NCBI GenBank assembly: GCA_030698575.1 | Contig: JAUYMQ010000456.1 | Coordinates: 1-14,372 of the forward strand | Direction of reading: 5' to 3' | DNA from: Deltaproteobacteria bacterium | Lineage (GTDB): Bacteria; JAUYMQ01 | DNA length: 14,372 nt | Shown: positions 7,988-14,372 of the stretch, one piece after another | Numbering within the stretch: the stretch's first letter is position 1 | Layout: the number at the start of each line of letters is the position of its first letter | Translations under genes and position numbers: made by a program | Notes under the pieces: generated by a model | What the model was told of the DNA's origin: nothing | Database searches by the model: none | What the model saw: the letters and a program-made list of their open reading frames with translations, nothing else

Positions 7988-8248
7988 ATGGAGCGTTTCG
8001 TCGACATCTACACGGCAGCAGAGTCCTGGGCGGCCCCGCTCGTCCGGGACTATCTGGCCCAGTTCGGCATCGACGCCCTCGTCCGAAGCAACGTGGTGAG
8101 CGTCTACCCCATGGCAATCGGGCCGCTTTCAGGATTCCGGGTCGGCGTGCGGGCGAACGACATGCGTGCAGCTGTCAGGCTGCTCGAACAAGCCATTTGC
8201 GACGGCGTGATTCCGGGCGAAGTTATCGCCCAGGGAGAGGATTCCTGA
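7988..8248 (+). CDS. DUF2007-type putative signal-transducing protein
   Basis: This 86-residue protein begins MERFVDIYTAAESWAAPLVR, followed by YLAQFGIDALVRSN and a short beta hairpin, then a strand (FRVGVRANDM) and a helix (AAVRLLEQAI). This matches the small alpha/beta DUF2007 family, with the usual opening 'strand - helix scanning LV..L...GI.a.v' and the closing 'V.v...d...A..lL' (recognised by eye). The family is often called putative prokaryotic signal transducing protein, and its biochemical role is not established. GGGGA lies 6-7 nt before ATG 7988. The gene is divergent from the response regulator and its stop is only 11 bp from the convergent flgM stop, with no terminator between. 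Confidence 0.68.
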   Translation: MERFVDIYTAAESWAAPLVRDYLAQFGIDALVRSNVVSVYPMAIGPLSGFRVGVRANDMRAAVRLLEQAICDGVIPGEVIAQGEDS

Positions 8249-8259
8249 GGAGCGGCCGG

Positions 8260-8601
8260 TCAGATGTCCCGCAGAAGGCCCTTGCGAATCATCCGCTCGG
8301 CGATTTCCTCGGGGTCGGGGTGATACCGCCCCTCAGCGATGATCTGGCGGTAGTGCGCGACCAGGTCCTCGCGGACGTCGGGCGCGCTCCTCGCCGTTTC
8401 GCCGGCCCGCTTCTGAAGGCCTTTCTCGAAGGCGCCGTTGCCGTTGGCAGACCCGTTGGTGGGCCGTGCCTCGCCGGCGCCGGCAGATCCGAGGTGCCAG
8501 CCGTTTCCGTTCCCGCCGTTGGCCTTGCTCGGATGAGGTGTATGGGACGACGCTGGTTTCGGGGAATTTGGGCCCCGCCGTGGCTTGGATCGATGGCTCA
8601 T
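8260..8601 (-). CDS. flgM: FlgM-like anti-sigma-28 factor with a long disordered N-terminus
   Basis: The last 40 of 113 residues read VREDLVAHYRQIIAEGRY followed by HPDPEEIAERMIRKGLL, which fits the FlgM C-terminal helical pattern (V..ekv..l...I..G.Y..d.e.iA..ll) that binds FliA. In known systems FlgM holds sigma-28 inactive until it is exported through the finished hook-basal body. The first 65 residues are basic, then Gly/Asn/Ser/Pro-rich and surely disordered; FlgM is natively unfolded, though usually 90-100 residues. Location next to fliA supports the call. GGAG lies 7 nt before ATG 8601. A terminator after fliA means it probably uses its own promoter. Main alternative: another FliA-binding or unrelated small protein. 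Confidence 0.72.
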   Translation of the reverse strand: MSHRSKPRRGPNSPKPASSHTPHPSKANGGNGNGWHLGSAGAGEARPTNGSANGNGAFEKGLQKRAGETARSAPDVREDLVAHYRQIIAEGRYHPDPEEIAERMIRKGLLRDI

Positions 8602-8777: not shown

Positions 8778-9536
8778 CTACTTGTCGAGTGAGCTCTTGA
8801 GCTTTCCGCGCAGCCGGAGGATCGCCTTCGTGTGAATCTGGCAGACGCGCGACTCGGTGATGTCGAGGATCTTGCCGATCTCCTTCATGTTCAGCTCGTC
8901 GTAGTAGTAGAGCGAGATGACGAGCCTCTCTTTGTCGGGCAGCATCCCGATTGACTCTGCGACGATCTTCTTCATCTCCTCGACGTTGAGGGCCATCGCG
9001 GGGTCCTCTCCCGTCGTGTCCTCGAGGACGTCGATCAAGTTTTTCTTCTCGAGGTCGCTCGCGCTGCGCACCTCGTCCAGGTTCACTACGGAGATTCCGC
9101 GAACCTGGTTCAGCATCTCGTGGAACTTCCTGATCTCGACTCCCATCTCGTCCGCCACTTCCTCGTCCGAGGCGGCTCTTCCGAGCCGTTGCTCCATGTT
9201 GCTGTAGGCAGCCTCCATCTTGCGGCTCTTCTGCCGGACGGAGCGGGGAACCCAGTCGAGGGAACGGAGTTGATCGAGAATGGCGCCCTTGATCCGGAAC
9301 TCGGCGTAGGTCTTGAATTTGCAGTTCTTCTCGGGATTGTACTTCTCGATGGCATCCATGAGGCCGATGACGCCGGTGTTGATGAGATCATCGAGATCAA
9401 CGTGCGATGGAAGGCGCTGGGCGATGCGGTTCACGATGTACTTGATGAGGGGGGCGTGCTCCATGATGAGCCGGTCTCGCGTGGTCTGGCTCATGCTCTC
9501 CGTCTCTGACCGGTGGCGCTTGGGCTCAGCGTTCAT
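8778..9536 (-). CDS. fliA: RNA polymerase sigma factor for flagellar genes (sigma-28)
   Basis: FliA directs RNA polymerase to late flagellar and chemotaxis promoters. The 252 residues have the FliA/WhiG layout with no region 1.1. Region 2 spans about 26-97 (YIVNRIAQRLP, DLDDLINTGVIGLMDAIEKY, then the FliA-typical FKTYAEFRIKGAILDQLRSLDWVPRSVR). Region 3 follows with LGRAASDEEVADEMG, and region 4 ends in the helix-turn-helix ITESRVCQIHTKAILRLR (226-243). GGAG lies 7 nt before ATG 9536; an internal ATG (residue 15) has its GGAGAG too close. Upstream is a sigma-54 promoter and downstream a terminator, so it appears to be a single-gene transcript. The adjacent activator gene is the likely regulator. 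Confidence 0.95.
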   Translation of the reverse strand: MNAEPKRHRSETESMSQTTRDRLIMEHAPLIKYIVNRIAQRLPSHVDLDDLINTGVIGLMDAIEKYNPEKNCKFKTYAEFRIKGAILDQLRSLDWVPRSVRQKSRKMEAAYSNMEQRLGRAASDEEVADEMGVEIRKFHEMLNQVRGISVVNLDEVRSASDLEKKNLIDVLEDTTGEDPAMALNVEEMKKIVAESIGMLPDKERLVISLYYYDELNMKEIGKILDITESRVCQIHTKAILRLRGKLKSSLDK

Positions 9537-9700: not shown

Positions 9701-9717
9701 TGCAATCGGTATGCCAA
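9701..9717 (-). promoter_or_regulatory. Sigma-54 (-24/-12) promoter of fliA
   Basis: On the minus strand the site reads TTGGCATACCGATTGCA. The invariant GG (-24) and GC (-12) are separated by exactly 10 bp, with full TGGCA and TTGCA cores, an excellent match to the RpoN consensus. It points at fliA, with a predicted start near 9690 and about 154 nt of leader. The neighbouring gene encodes a GAFTGA-bearing sigma-54 activator, the required partner for such promoters. Confidence 0.82.
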
Positions 9718-10130: not shown

Positions 10131-11594
<1,464 letters not shown>

Positions 11595-11709: not shown

Positions 11710-11726
11710 GGGCTCAAGGCGAGCCC
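11710..11726. repeat. 6-bp hairpin in the divergent promoter region
   Basis: GGGCTC-AAGGC-GAGCCC is a perfect inverted repeat between the two divergent enhancer-binding-protein genes. It overlaps the candidate sigma-28 -35 element of the plus-strand gene and could be an operator as well as an RNA hairpin. Confidence 0.35.
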
Positions 11727-11741
11727 CCGATCAGCCGAAAA
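11714..11741 (+). promoter_or_regulatory. Candidate sigma-28 promoter of the degenerate enhancer-binding-protein operon
   Basis: TCAAG (TCAA at 11714-11717) is followed after 16 bp by GCCGAAAA (11734-11741), seven of eight bases of the FliA -10 consensus GCCGATAA. The -35 sequence and the spacing are the same as in the flgM candidate. The predicted start near 11749 leaves a leader of about 80 nt. No competing sigma-70 or sigma-54 promoter was seen for this strand. Confidence 0.4.
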
Positions 11742-11827: not shown

Positions 11828-13243
11828 ATGATCAAGAAAAGCTCGACAAACGCGCCGCCCGATCGGGGGCGCTTGCTGATTTCCGGTGGAGAAGCGGCGT
11901 GGGCGAGCGCGCTCGCCGATGCGCTTTCCGCGGAAGGTCACCGGGTCATCCCTGGCGAGGGATCTGTCGACCTCTGCGACGCCGTGCGCGTGAAGAACCC
12001 CGACGTGATCATCTTATACGCCGGCAGCAAGGCTGCGGAGGGGCGCGCCCTCATCAGCGAGCTGCGGGCGCTTCAACCCGACCTGCAGATCGTTCTCGTC
12101 TCACCCTCCGATTCACTCGGCAACGCCTTCGCCTGGGCGACGGCAGGCGTGATCGATTTCGTCGAGCCTTTCGCCGCACCCTCCGAATCTATCCTTTTGA
12201 CCACCCGGCGGGCGGTCGAGCGGCGCTGGCTCCTCGGCCGGTTGCGCCAGCTCGACATTGAGTCCGGGGAAGGGGACGGGACAGGAGGTCTGGTCGGCAC
12301 CTCGAACGCGATGCGCGAGATCCTGCGTCGCGTTGCGGAACTGGCCCGGACGAATGCCTACGTGCTGATCGAGGGCCAGGAGGGAACCGGCCGCGGGACG
12401 ATGGCCAGGGCCATGCACCTGGCCGGGCCGAGGCGGGACGAGCCGTTCATCCGCGTCCACTGCATCGAGATCCAGCCGTCGGGGGCCGCGGGAGCCGCGG
12501 CCGGGAACGGCGAGCGGTCCGGCGCGGGCGCAACGTCGATCGAGGACGTCTTCGCCCGGGCGGGCCGCGGAACCATCTTCTTCGAAGCGATCGACAGGCT
12601 GAGGGGGGACGCCCAGCGGGAGATGCTGGCCCGGCTCGAAGCCCAGGAGGAGGCGCTCATGCAGGGCGCCGGCGCACGAACCGAACAGCCCCGGATCATC
12701 GCGTCCACGAGCAACGATCTCGATCTTCAGGTTCAGCAGGGGAAATTCGAGGGGGACCTGTACCGGCGGCTGAAGGCCGACTCGTTGAGACTCCCCCCGT
12801 TGCGGGATCGCCGCGAAGAGATCCCTGCGTTCGTTCGGCACTTCCTCCGCGGTTTCGGGACGGACGGGACGGACGCGAAGGGGATGGACAGGGCCGCGCT
12901 GAATCTGCTCTGCCGGTACGAATGGCCCGGCAATCTGCGAGAACTGGAGGACTGCTTGCGCTACGCCGTGGCGCTGACCGGTGGTGCGACGATCGGAACG
13001 GACGATCTGCCGGAGAAAATCGTGGAGTCATCTCGCCAGGAAGCACTCGGAGCGGGCGGCGGCTCACTCTCGCTGAAGGGCTGTGAAAAGCACACGATCG
13101 AACAGGCGCTCTCGCTGTGTGACGGTGACGTCATCGCGGCGGCCACCATGCTTGGGGTAGGCCGGAGCACCTTGTACAGAAAGATGAATTCACATGGCGT
13201 CCACCGCCGCGCGTTCCGGCGCGGACGGAGAACAGGCGCCTGA
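11828..13243 (+). CDS. Degenerate NtrC-family protein (pseudo-receiver, inactive AAA+, Fis-type HTH)
   Basis: 471 residues with the order of an NtrC-type activator but nearly every functional residue changed. Receiver (14-130): the acidic pair is G20-G21, the phosphoacceptor is Tyr64 (VIILYAG) and the Lys-Pro is Glu113-Pro. AAA+ (about 155-385): Walker A reads GQEGTGRG with Arg179 for Lys; the GAFTGA loop is replaced by a Gly/Ala-rich stretch (about 208-226); Walker B reads FFEAID with Glu243-Ala244 for Asp-Glu; the first arginine finger is Glu298. The fold signatures remain: IIASTSNDLDL, R304, LPPLRDR, WPGNLRELED and the helix-turn-helix VIAAATMLGVGRSTLYRKM. It should neither be phosphorylated, hydrolyse ATP normally nor contact sigma-54. 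The frame is intact, so it is not a decaying gene. AAGG lies only 2 nt before ATG. It is divergent from the FleQ-like gene; an HD-GYP gene follows 44 nt later. Confidence 0.85.
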   Translation: MIKKSSTNAPPDRGRLLISGGEAAWASALADALSAEGHRVIPGEGSVDLCDAVRVKNPDVIILYAGSKAAEGRALISELRALQPDLQIVLVSPSDSLGNAFAWATAGVIDFVEPFAAPSESILLTTRRAVERRWLLGRLRQLDIESGEGDGTGGLVGTSNAMREILRRVAELARTNAYVLIEGQEGTGRGTMARAMHLAGPRRDEPFIRVHCIEIQPSGAAGAAAGNGERSGAGATSIEDVFARAGRGTIFFEAIDRLRGDAQREMLARLEAQEEALMQGAGARTEQPRIIASTSNDLDLQVQQGKFEGDLYRRLKADSLRLPPLRDRREEIPAFVRHFLRGFGTDGTDAKGMDRAALNLLCRYEWPGNLRELEDCLRYAVALTGGATIGTDDLPEKIVESSRQEALGAGGGSLSLKGCEKHTIEQALSLCDGDVIAAATMLGVGRSTLYRKMNSHGVHRRAFRRGRRTGA

Positions 13244-13287: not shown

Positions 13288-14372
13288 ATGAAGCCAGGTG
13301 TGCTGTTCGTCGATGACGAACCGAACATCCTGAAGGCGATCCGCCGCCTGTTCAGGGGGGAGGACTTTGATCTCTATACGGCCGAGAGCGGCGCCGCAGC
13401 CCTCAAGCGAATGGAGGAAGGTGGCATCGAAGTCGTCGTGAGCGATCATCGGATGGCCGGCATGACTGGCGTGGATCTTCTCTCCACGATGAGGGAGAAG
13501 TGGCCGGAAGCCATCCGCATACTCGTGACCGGAAATTCGGAAATGGCTATCGCGGTGGAAGCCATCAACCGGGGAGAGATATACCGGCTCATCACCAAAC
13601 CCTGGAACGACGACGAGATCCGTGCGACCGTCCGGGAGGCGCTCGACCTGTACGCGCTCAAGGGCGAGATCAAGCGCCTGAACCATCTCACTCATGAGCA
13701 GAACCTGCAGCTCAAGGACCTTCACCAGAATCTCGAAGCAAAAGTGGCGGAGCGGACCGAGGAACTGTCGAGAAGGAACGCCGAACTCGGCGTCGCCTAC
13801 ATCGGGACGCTGAAAGCCCTCATGAGCGCAATAGATGCCCATCACCAGTGCGCCGCCAATCATTCCGAGCGGGCGGCAATCTACACGGGGCTGATCGCCC
13901 GGCGCATGGGGCTGGAAGAGGCGCAGGTCAGGCGCCTGCACGTCGCCGGACTCCTCCACGACGTCGGCAAGATCGGGATCCGTGCAGAAATATTGAACAA
14001 AAGGGGGCCGCTCTCGGACGAGGAGAGGCGCGGGATGCAGCGCCACCCCGTGATTGCAGCGGACATGCTGGCGGGCGTGCCGTGGCTCCGGGACATCCTG
14101 GCGATGATTCGCAACCACCATGAATGGTTCGACGGGGATCCGCGCGGTTATCCGGATAACCTGAAGGGAAGCGAGATCGACCTGGGCGCCCGGATCATCG
14201 GCGTGGCGGACGCGATCGAAGCGATGGCGAACGACCGCCCCTTCCGGAGCGCCTACCCGCCCGATCGGGTGATCGCCGAGTTGCGGAGATGCGCCGGGAC
14301 GCAGTTCGATCCGGAAGTCGTGGCCTGCGCGATCGCACTCCTGGAGGAAGGCGGCGAGGATTTCCTCCTCTC
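13288..14372 (+). CDS. REC-HD-GYP response regulator, probable c-di-GMP phosphodiesterase (3' end outside the window)
   Basis: The frame runs 361 codons from ATG 13288 (AAGGGG about 5 nt upstream) to the window edge without a stop. The receiver (1-120) is canonical: D9-D10, phosphoacceptor D53 in VVSDHRMAGMTG, T81 and K104 in LITKPWNDDE. A coiled-coil linker follows (about 122-165). The HD-GYP domain (from about 172) shows H192, the HDVGK metal site (214-218), HHE (257-259), a GYP (267-269) and GVADAIEAMANDRPFR (285-300). HD-GYP proteins such as RpfG hydrolyse c-di-GMP (family knowledge). The signature is DG-DPR-GYP, two residues longer than the usual DG-x-GYP. It lies 44 nt after the degenerate enhancer-binding protein and is probably cotranscribed with it, fitting motility control. 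Confidence 0.9.
   Translation, partial: MKPGVLFVDDEPNILKAIRRLFRGEDFDLYTAESGAAALKRMEEGGIEVVVSDHRMAGMTGVDLLSTMREKWPEAIRILVTGNSEMAIAVEAINRGEIYRLITKPWNDDEIRATVREALDLYALKGEIKRLNHLTHEQNLQLKDLHQNLEAKVAERTEELSRRNAELGVAYIGTLKALMSAIDAHHQCAANHSERAAIYTGLIARRMGLEEAQVRRLHVAGLLHDVGKIGIRAEILNKRGPLSDEERRGMQRHPVIAADMLAGVPWLRDILAMIRNHHEWFDGDPRGYPDNLKGSEIDLGARIIGVADAIEAMANDRPFRSAYPPDRVIAELRRCAGTQFDPEVVACAIALLEEGGEDFLL

Follow-up and report, generated by a model that had tools for sequence, protein, structure and literature searches.

Enhancer-binding proteins with altered motors and partners

Enhancer-binding proteins (EBPs) that have no GAFTGA motif, including NtrC from R. capsulatus and Caulobacter as well as VpsR, control sigma-70 promoters (PMC10274813). 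VpsR has no requirement for ATP; the GAFTGA-less NtrC of Caulobacter still requires its Walker A and Walker B residues (PMC10274813). EBPs may also form hetero-oligomers, as reported for FleQ and FleT of Rhodobacter sphaeroides, of which FleT is a sigma-54 activator (PMC7277832), and for VnfA paralogues and HrpRS (PMC9542535). PgtA-like response regulators of Photobacterium (L054:7992-9263, L055, L056, L058, and L063) have dead AAA+ cores, with GENGTGRH at Walker A, no GAFTGA, and both Walker B and the arginine fingers lost, and are under strong purifying selection (dN 0.004-0.06 and dS from 0.2 to saturation across five species).

The window, meaning the whole 14,372-nucleotide stretch analyzed, encodes at 11828-13243 (+) a 471-amino acid pseudo-EBP of the NtrC family in which ATPase and phospho-receiver both read as dead. 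Like the GAFTGA-less NtrC proteins and VpsR, it has the NtrC-family domain order, a DNA-binding domain that has been kept, and an L1 loop that has lost its sigma-54 contact, which is the combination seen in sigma-70-type EBPs; however, the receiver Asp is still present in those proteins and the Walker motifs are required in Caulobacter NtrC, whereas here neither the receiver nor the ATPase is intact. The PgtA-like proteins share with it the Walker A K to R change, losses at L1, Walker B, and the arginine fingers, and a kept HTH, but their receiver is intact. Their dead-core syndrome arose separately and is convergent, and because the pseudo-EBP reaches 84.9 bits where the PgtA equivalog NF047793 has a cut-off of 650, it is not PgtA. 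FleQ/FleT resembles the window in that two EBPs share a flagellar-type regulatory circuit that also includes FliA and FlgM. The difference is that FleT has been reported to be a sigma-54 activator, whereas in the window one of the two EBPs is dead, and the genome yielded no flagellum. The initial annotation, in stating that no flagellar system with such a pair was known, overlooked this hetero-oligomeric pair (PMC7277832), although FleT is a sigma-54 activator and not a dead protein. The loss of switch, motor, and polymerase contact is unusually complete in the pseudo-EBP while the DNA-binding end is kept, and for that reason the protein is well suited to asking what an AAA+ scaffold contributes once it has stopped working as a motor.

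Anatomy of the pseudo-EBP

Pfam matches on the protein are Sigma54_activat (94 bits), AAA_lid_14 (77 bits), and HTH_8 (39.5 bits), with no match to Response_reg. AlphaFold2 gave confident domains (mean pLDDT 85.2, pTM 0.59), and the Foldseek matches of the model were NtrX, NtrC1, VpsR, and FleQ; the AAA+ fold, lid, and Fis-type HTH of a sigma-54 activator are thus all present. The residues on which function depends are another matter. Alignment with EBPs places a degenerate receiver at residues 14-146 (11867-12265, +), in which direct reading and alignment agree that the acidic pair (G20 and G21 for D and D), the phospho-Asp (Y64), and the Lys (E113) expected of a phospho-receiver are absent. 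In the AAA+ core, examined in the same two ways, Walker A is a degenerate GQEGTGRG with K replaced by R189 (residues 183-190; 12374-12397, +), the Walker B acidic pair is lost (E253-A254 in RGTIFFEAI; 12584-12589, +), and arginine finger 1 is replaced by E308 in KFEGDLYRRLK (12749-12751, +); arginine finger 2 (R314) is still present. In an alignment of 35 EBPs, K189, D253, E254, and R308 each show 100% conservation; since all four are altered here, the losses exceed chance.

The GAFTGA motif, also expected of a sigma-54 activator, has been swapped along with the rest of the L1 loop for an Ala/Gly-rich stretch at residues 219-236 (12482-12535, +), where 5 of 17 conserved L1-region positions are kept. 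The former loop reads GAAGAAAGNGERSGAGA; the length of the region is nearly kept, being one residue shorter, and residues 227-233 are disordered in the AlphaFold2 model (pLDDT <50). Judged from these residues, ATP hydrolysis is almost certainly ruled out and the usual phosphorylation is no longer possible. The remainder of the protein is close to normal, with 16 of 21 conserved positions kept in the AAA+ lid (residues 318-405; 12779-13042, +), including WPGNLREL at 366-373, and 11 of 11 in the HTH (residues 412-460; 13061-13207, +), which has the recognition helix GRSTLYRKM. The initial annotation had identified every lost residue in the receiver, ATPase, and GAFTGA loop correctly, as well as the kept WPGNLREL and DNA-binding helix, but its numbers for the ATPase residues (179, 243-244, and 298) are 10 too low.

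A sequencing frameshift or error masking GAFTGA was considered and rejected. The missing motifs, GAFTGA included, do not occur in the other forward frames of the gene, and GC by codon position (0.68/0.52/0.81) agrees with that of neighboring genes and is gene-like all along the uninterrupted open reading frame; a frameshift is therefore not the cause of the losses, and the frame and coordinates first assigned to the gene are upheld.

Selective decay and relationships

For each domain, a fasttree tree of 75-76 EBPs was used to compare terminal branches with the median branch. The AAA+ core of the pseudo-EBP has a branch of 2.15 versus a median of 0.32 (6.7x), the longest in the tree, with the next at 0.69, and the receiver has a branch of 2.06 versus 0.66 (3.1x). 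The lid (1.13 versus 0.61, rank 4) and the HTH (0.95 versus 0.46, rank 5) are much less affected, although both still evolve at about twice the median rate, which is a counterpoint to the view that the DNA-binding end has been spared. The full-length tree gives 3.09 versus 0.58, and a tree of lid and HTH only, made by a different method and with a different row set, gives 0.81 versus 0.5. Sequence identity with other EBPs falls in the normal range for the lid (0.405 versus 0.432) and HTH (0.333 versus 0.362) but not for the core (0.306 versus 0.563). Within the AAA+ domain, functional positions differ from other positions (Fisher p = 0.0008; 0.05 without L1). With the branch excess concentrated in the core and receiver, small in the lid and HTH, and every conserved HTH position kept, a retained DNA-binding role is indicated, in agreement with the selection for a non-catalytic role that had been proposed. 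The decay points to the pattern expected if motor and switch were unconstrained and DNA binding constrained.

The pseudo-EBP had also been called a dead paralogue of the adjacent FleQ-like EBP, which is not borne out by the trees: in three of them it falls outside the FleQ-like clade on a long branch of its own, although a sister pairing of the two is not rejected (AU p 0.26). The RTTLVEK helix that marks the clade is absent from it. Recent duplication of the FleQ-like gene was considered as an origin; the three trees do not join the two proteins, while the sister pairing is not formally rejected. No orthologue was found within its own phylum, of which its genome (G000) is the sole member in the searched set, or at E 1e-62 among 386 genomes, and no close relative was found in GTDB contigs by a peptide-pattern search or in viral contigs. 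Two tandem clusters of three EBPs (L105:8252-12476 and L109:8690-12916) begin with an orthologue of the FleQ-like gene and end with an EBP that has a degenerate receiver and intact ATPase motifs; the receiver in L109 is VpsR-domain-like, just under the cut-off. These third EBPs, which have a TLYRK helix, were tried as orthologues and rejected, as all of their catalytic motifs are intact and they do not group with the pseudo-EBP.

Genomic setting

The FleQ-like gene (10131-11594, -) encodes 487 amino acids from the ATG at 11594 and is divergent from the pseudo-EBP gene, with 233 bp between the start codons; a sigma-70-like box upstream of this ATG (11675-11647, -) is not above chance. Pfam and motif reading identify a catalytically intact EBP (GESGTGKE, GAFTGA, GGTIFLDEI, and FREDLYYRLN) with a degenerate receiver of its own, also without a phospho-Asp (LLLGLPL). 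Compared with the FleQ family, this neighbor has the RTTLVEK HTH (recognition helix NRTTLVEKI), active ATPase motifs, and no phospho-Asp, whereas the three trees do not place the pseudo-EBP in the clade. The best orthologues of the neighbor are 46-53% identical and have RTTLVEK or a close variant as recognition helix; several of them adjoin fliA (six loci) or lie near fliF or flg genes (five loci), with L120 in both sets. The initial description of the neighbor as FleQ-like is therefore supported.

After the FleQ-like gene on the same strand come genes for a FliA/WhiG-family sigma factor (8778-9536, -; TIGR02479, 286.6 bits against a cut-off of 189.6) and a FlgM-like anti-sigma factor (8260-8601, -; PF04316, 43.5 bits against a cut-off of 25). 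Some 165 bp upstream of fliA is an exact match to the sigma-54 -24/-12 element, TGGCATACCGATTGC (9702-9716, -), of which 0.04 would be expected in the window by chance.

The genome (4.13 Mb in 653 contigs, 91.6% complete) encodes RpoN, but the flagellar system assumed in the initial annotation was not recovered. There is no FlhA or flagellin match in the 91.6% complete genome and no flagellar structural protein by tblastn over 0.99 Mb of its contigs; no rod/hook domain was found either, which counts less because a short model was used, one that left a likely true member under its cut-off. It is possible that a flagellar cluster is missing from the bin. A misbinned contig was rejected as an explanation, as ValS is encoded nowhere else in the genome than in the window, and the tetranucleotide composition of the window is in keeping with that of the genome. 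The FleQ-like activator, FliA, and FlgM-like genes thus occur without detectable FlhA, flagellin, or rod/hook proteins, and given this apparent lack of a flagellum the FleQ-FliA-FlgM set is a candidate for repurposed flagellar regulation.

Possible roles of the pseudo-EBP

On balance, the pseudo-EBP is probably a DNA-binding regulator independent of sigma-54, either an activator or a repressor, for which the GAFTGA-less NtrC proteins, VpsR, and PgtA serve as precedents. Whereas the losses, the unbroken frame, the sparing of lid and HTH, and the gene neighborhood were observed directly, this role is inferred. It would act at sigma-70-type promoters, and its receiver and AAA+ core may have been reused as a scaffold for dimerization or for a ligand. 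The gene is probably co-transcribed with one for a receiver and HD-GYP phosphodiesterase (13288-14372, +), which follows it in the same orientation after 44 bp, has HHE..DG..GYP, and runs off the contig. The example of Caulobacter NtrC, which needs its motor even without GAFTGA (PMC10274813), is a counterpoint to a role that is free of the motor.

That the pseudo-EBP instead joins the rings or dimers of the FleQ-like protein as a dominant-negative partner, poisoning the ATPase and so controlling expression of fliA, is unlikely. The divergent adjacency of the two genes and the exact sigma-54 site upstream of fliA are consistent with such a role, hetero-oligomers are known for FleQ/FleT (PMC7277832), VnfA paralogues, and HrpRS (PMC9542535), and the lack of a good match to FlhG/FleN in the genome (the best is 29% identical over 174 amino acids, E 2e-13) could create a need for a different antagonist. 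However, the AAA core is only about 30% identical to those of active EBPs, the trees do not join the two proteins, and their recognition helices differ.

It is quite unlikely that the regulators have merely outlasted a lost flagellum, with the pseudo-EBP in slow decay, since all 471 codons remain in an unbroken frame even though the core branch has accumulated about 2 changes per site, GC by codon position is normal along the whole gene, the lid and HTH are spared, and the neighboring EBP, FliA, and HD-GYP proteins retain their motifs or family scores. Decay of this kind would nevertheless fit the missing FlhA, flagellin, and rod/hook matches, the degenerate receivers of both EBPs, and the fact that conservation of the pseudo-EBP is seen in no relative, there being no close one in the searched sets. 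A broader proposal, rated as improbable, is that a deep lineage that has no flagellum has rewired a flagellar-type module (FleQ-like activator, FliA, and FlgM) and that the fully dead pseudo-EBP, encoded back to back with it and joined to the HD-GYP phosphodiesterase gene, would be its dedicated antagonist in mixed rings. Competition for the enhancers of the FleQ-like activator, another of the original suggestions, is very unlikely: the two genes have one 233-bp divergent regulatory region in common and both proteins have a Fis-type HTH, but GRSTLYRKM differs from NRTTLVEKI, the RTTLVEK or close variant kept in orthologues of the neighbor is absent from the pseudo-EBP, and the two candidate regions contain no convincing shared dyad.

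Additional observations

A search for the FliA target pattern returned 123 matches versus 76 in the reversed control, mostly inside open reading frames among those examined, and is not interpretable. One weak sigma-28-like match (three mismatches) lies 86 bp upstream of the pseudo-EBP gene (11715-11741, +); six matches of such quality occur in the window versus 2.7 expected. A second degenerate EBP core is encoded elsewhere in the genome (L140:2514-4445, G000:C70, +), in a protein with a receiver without phospho-Asp, an AAA+ domain without GAFTGA, a lid, and then a HisKA domain, and its gene is directly upstream of one for an EBP with normal motifs. In the window, the FlgM-like gene is adjoined by a gene for a small DUF2007 protein (7988-8245, +).
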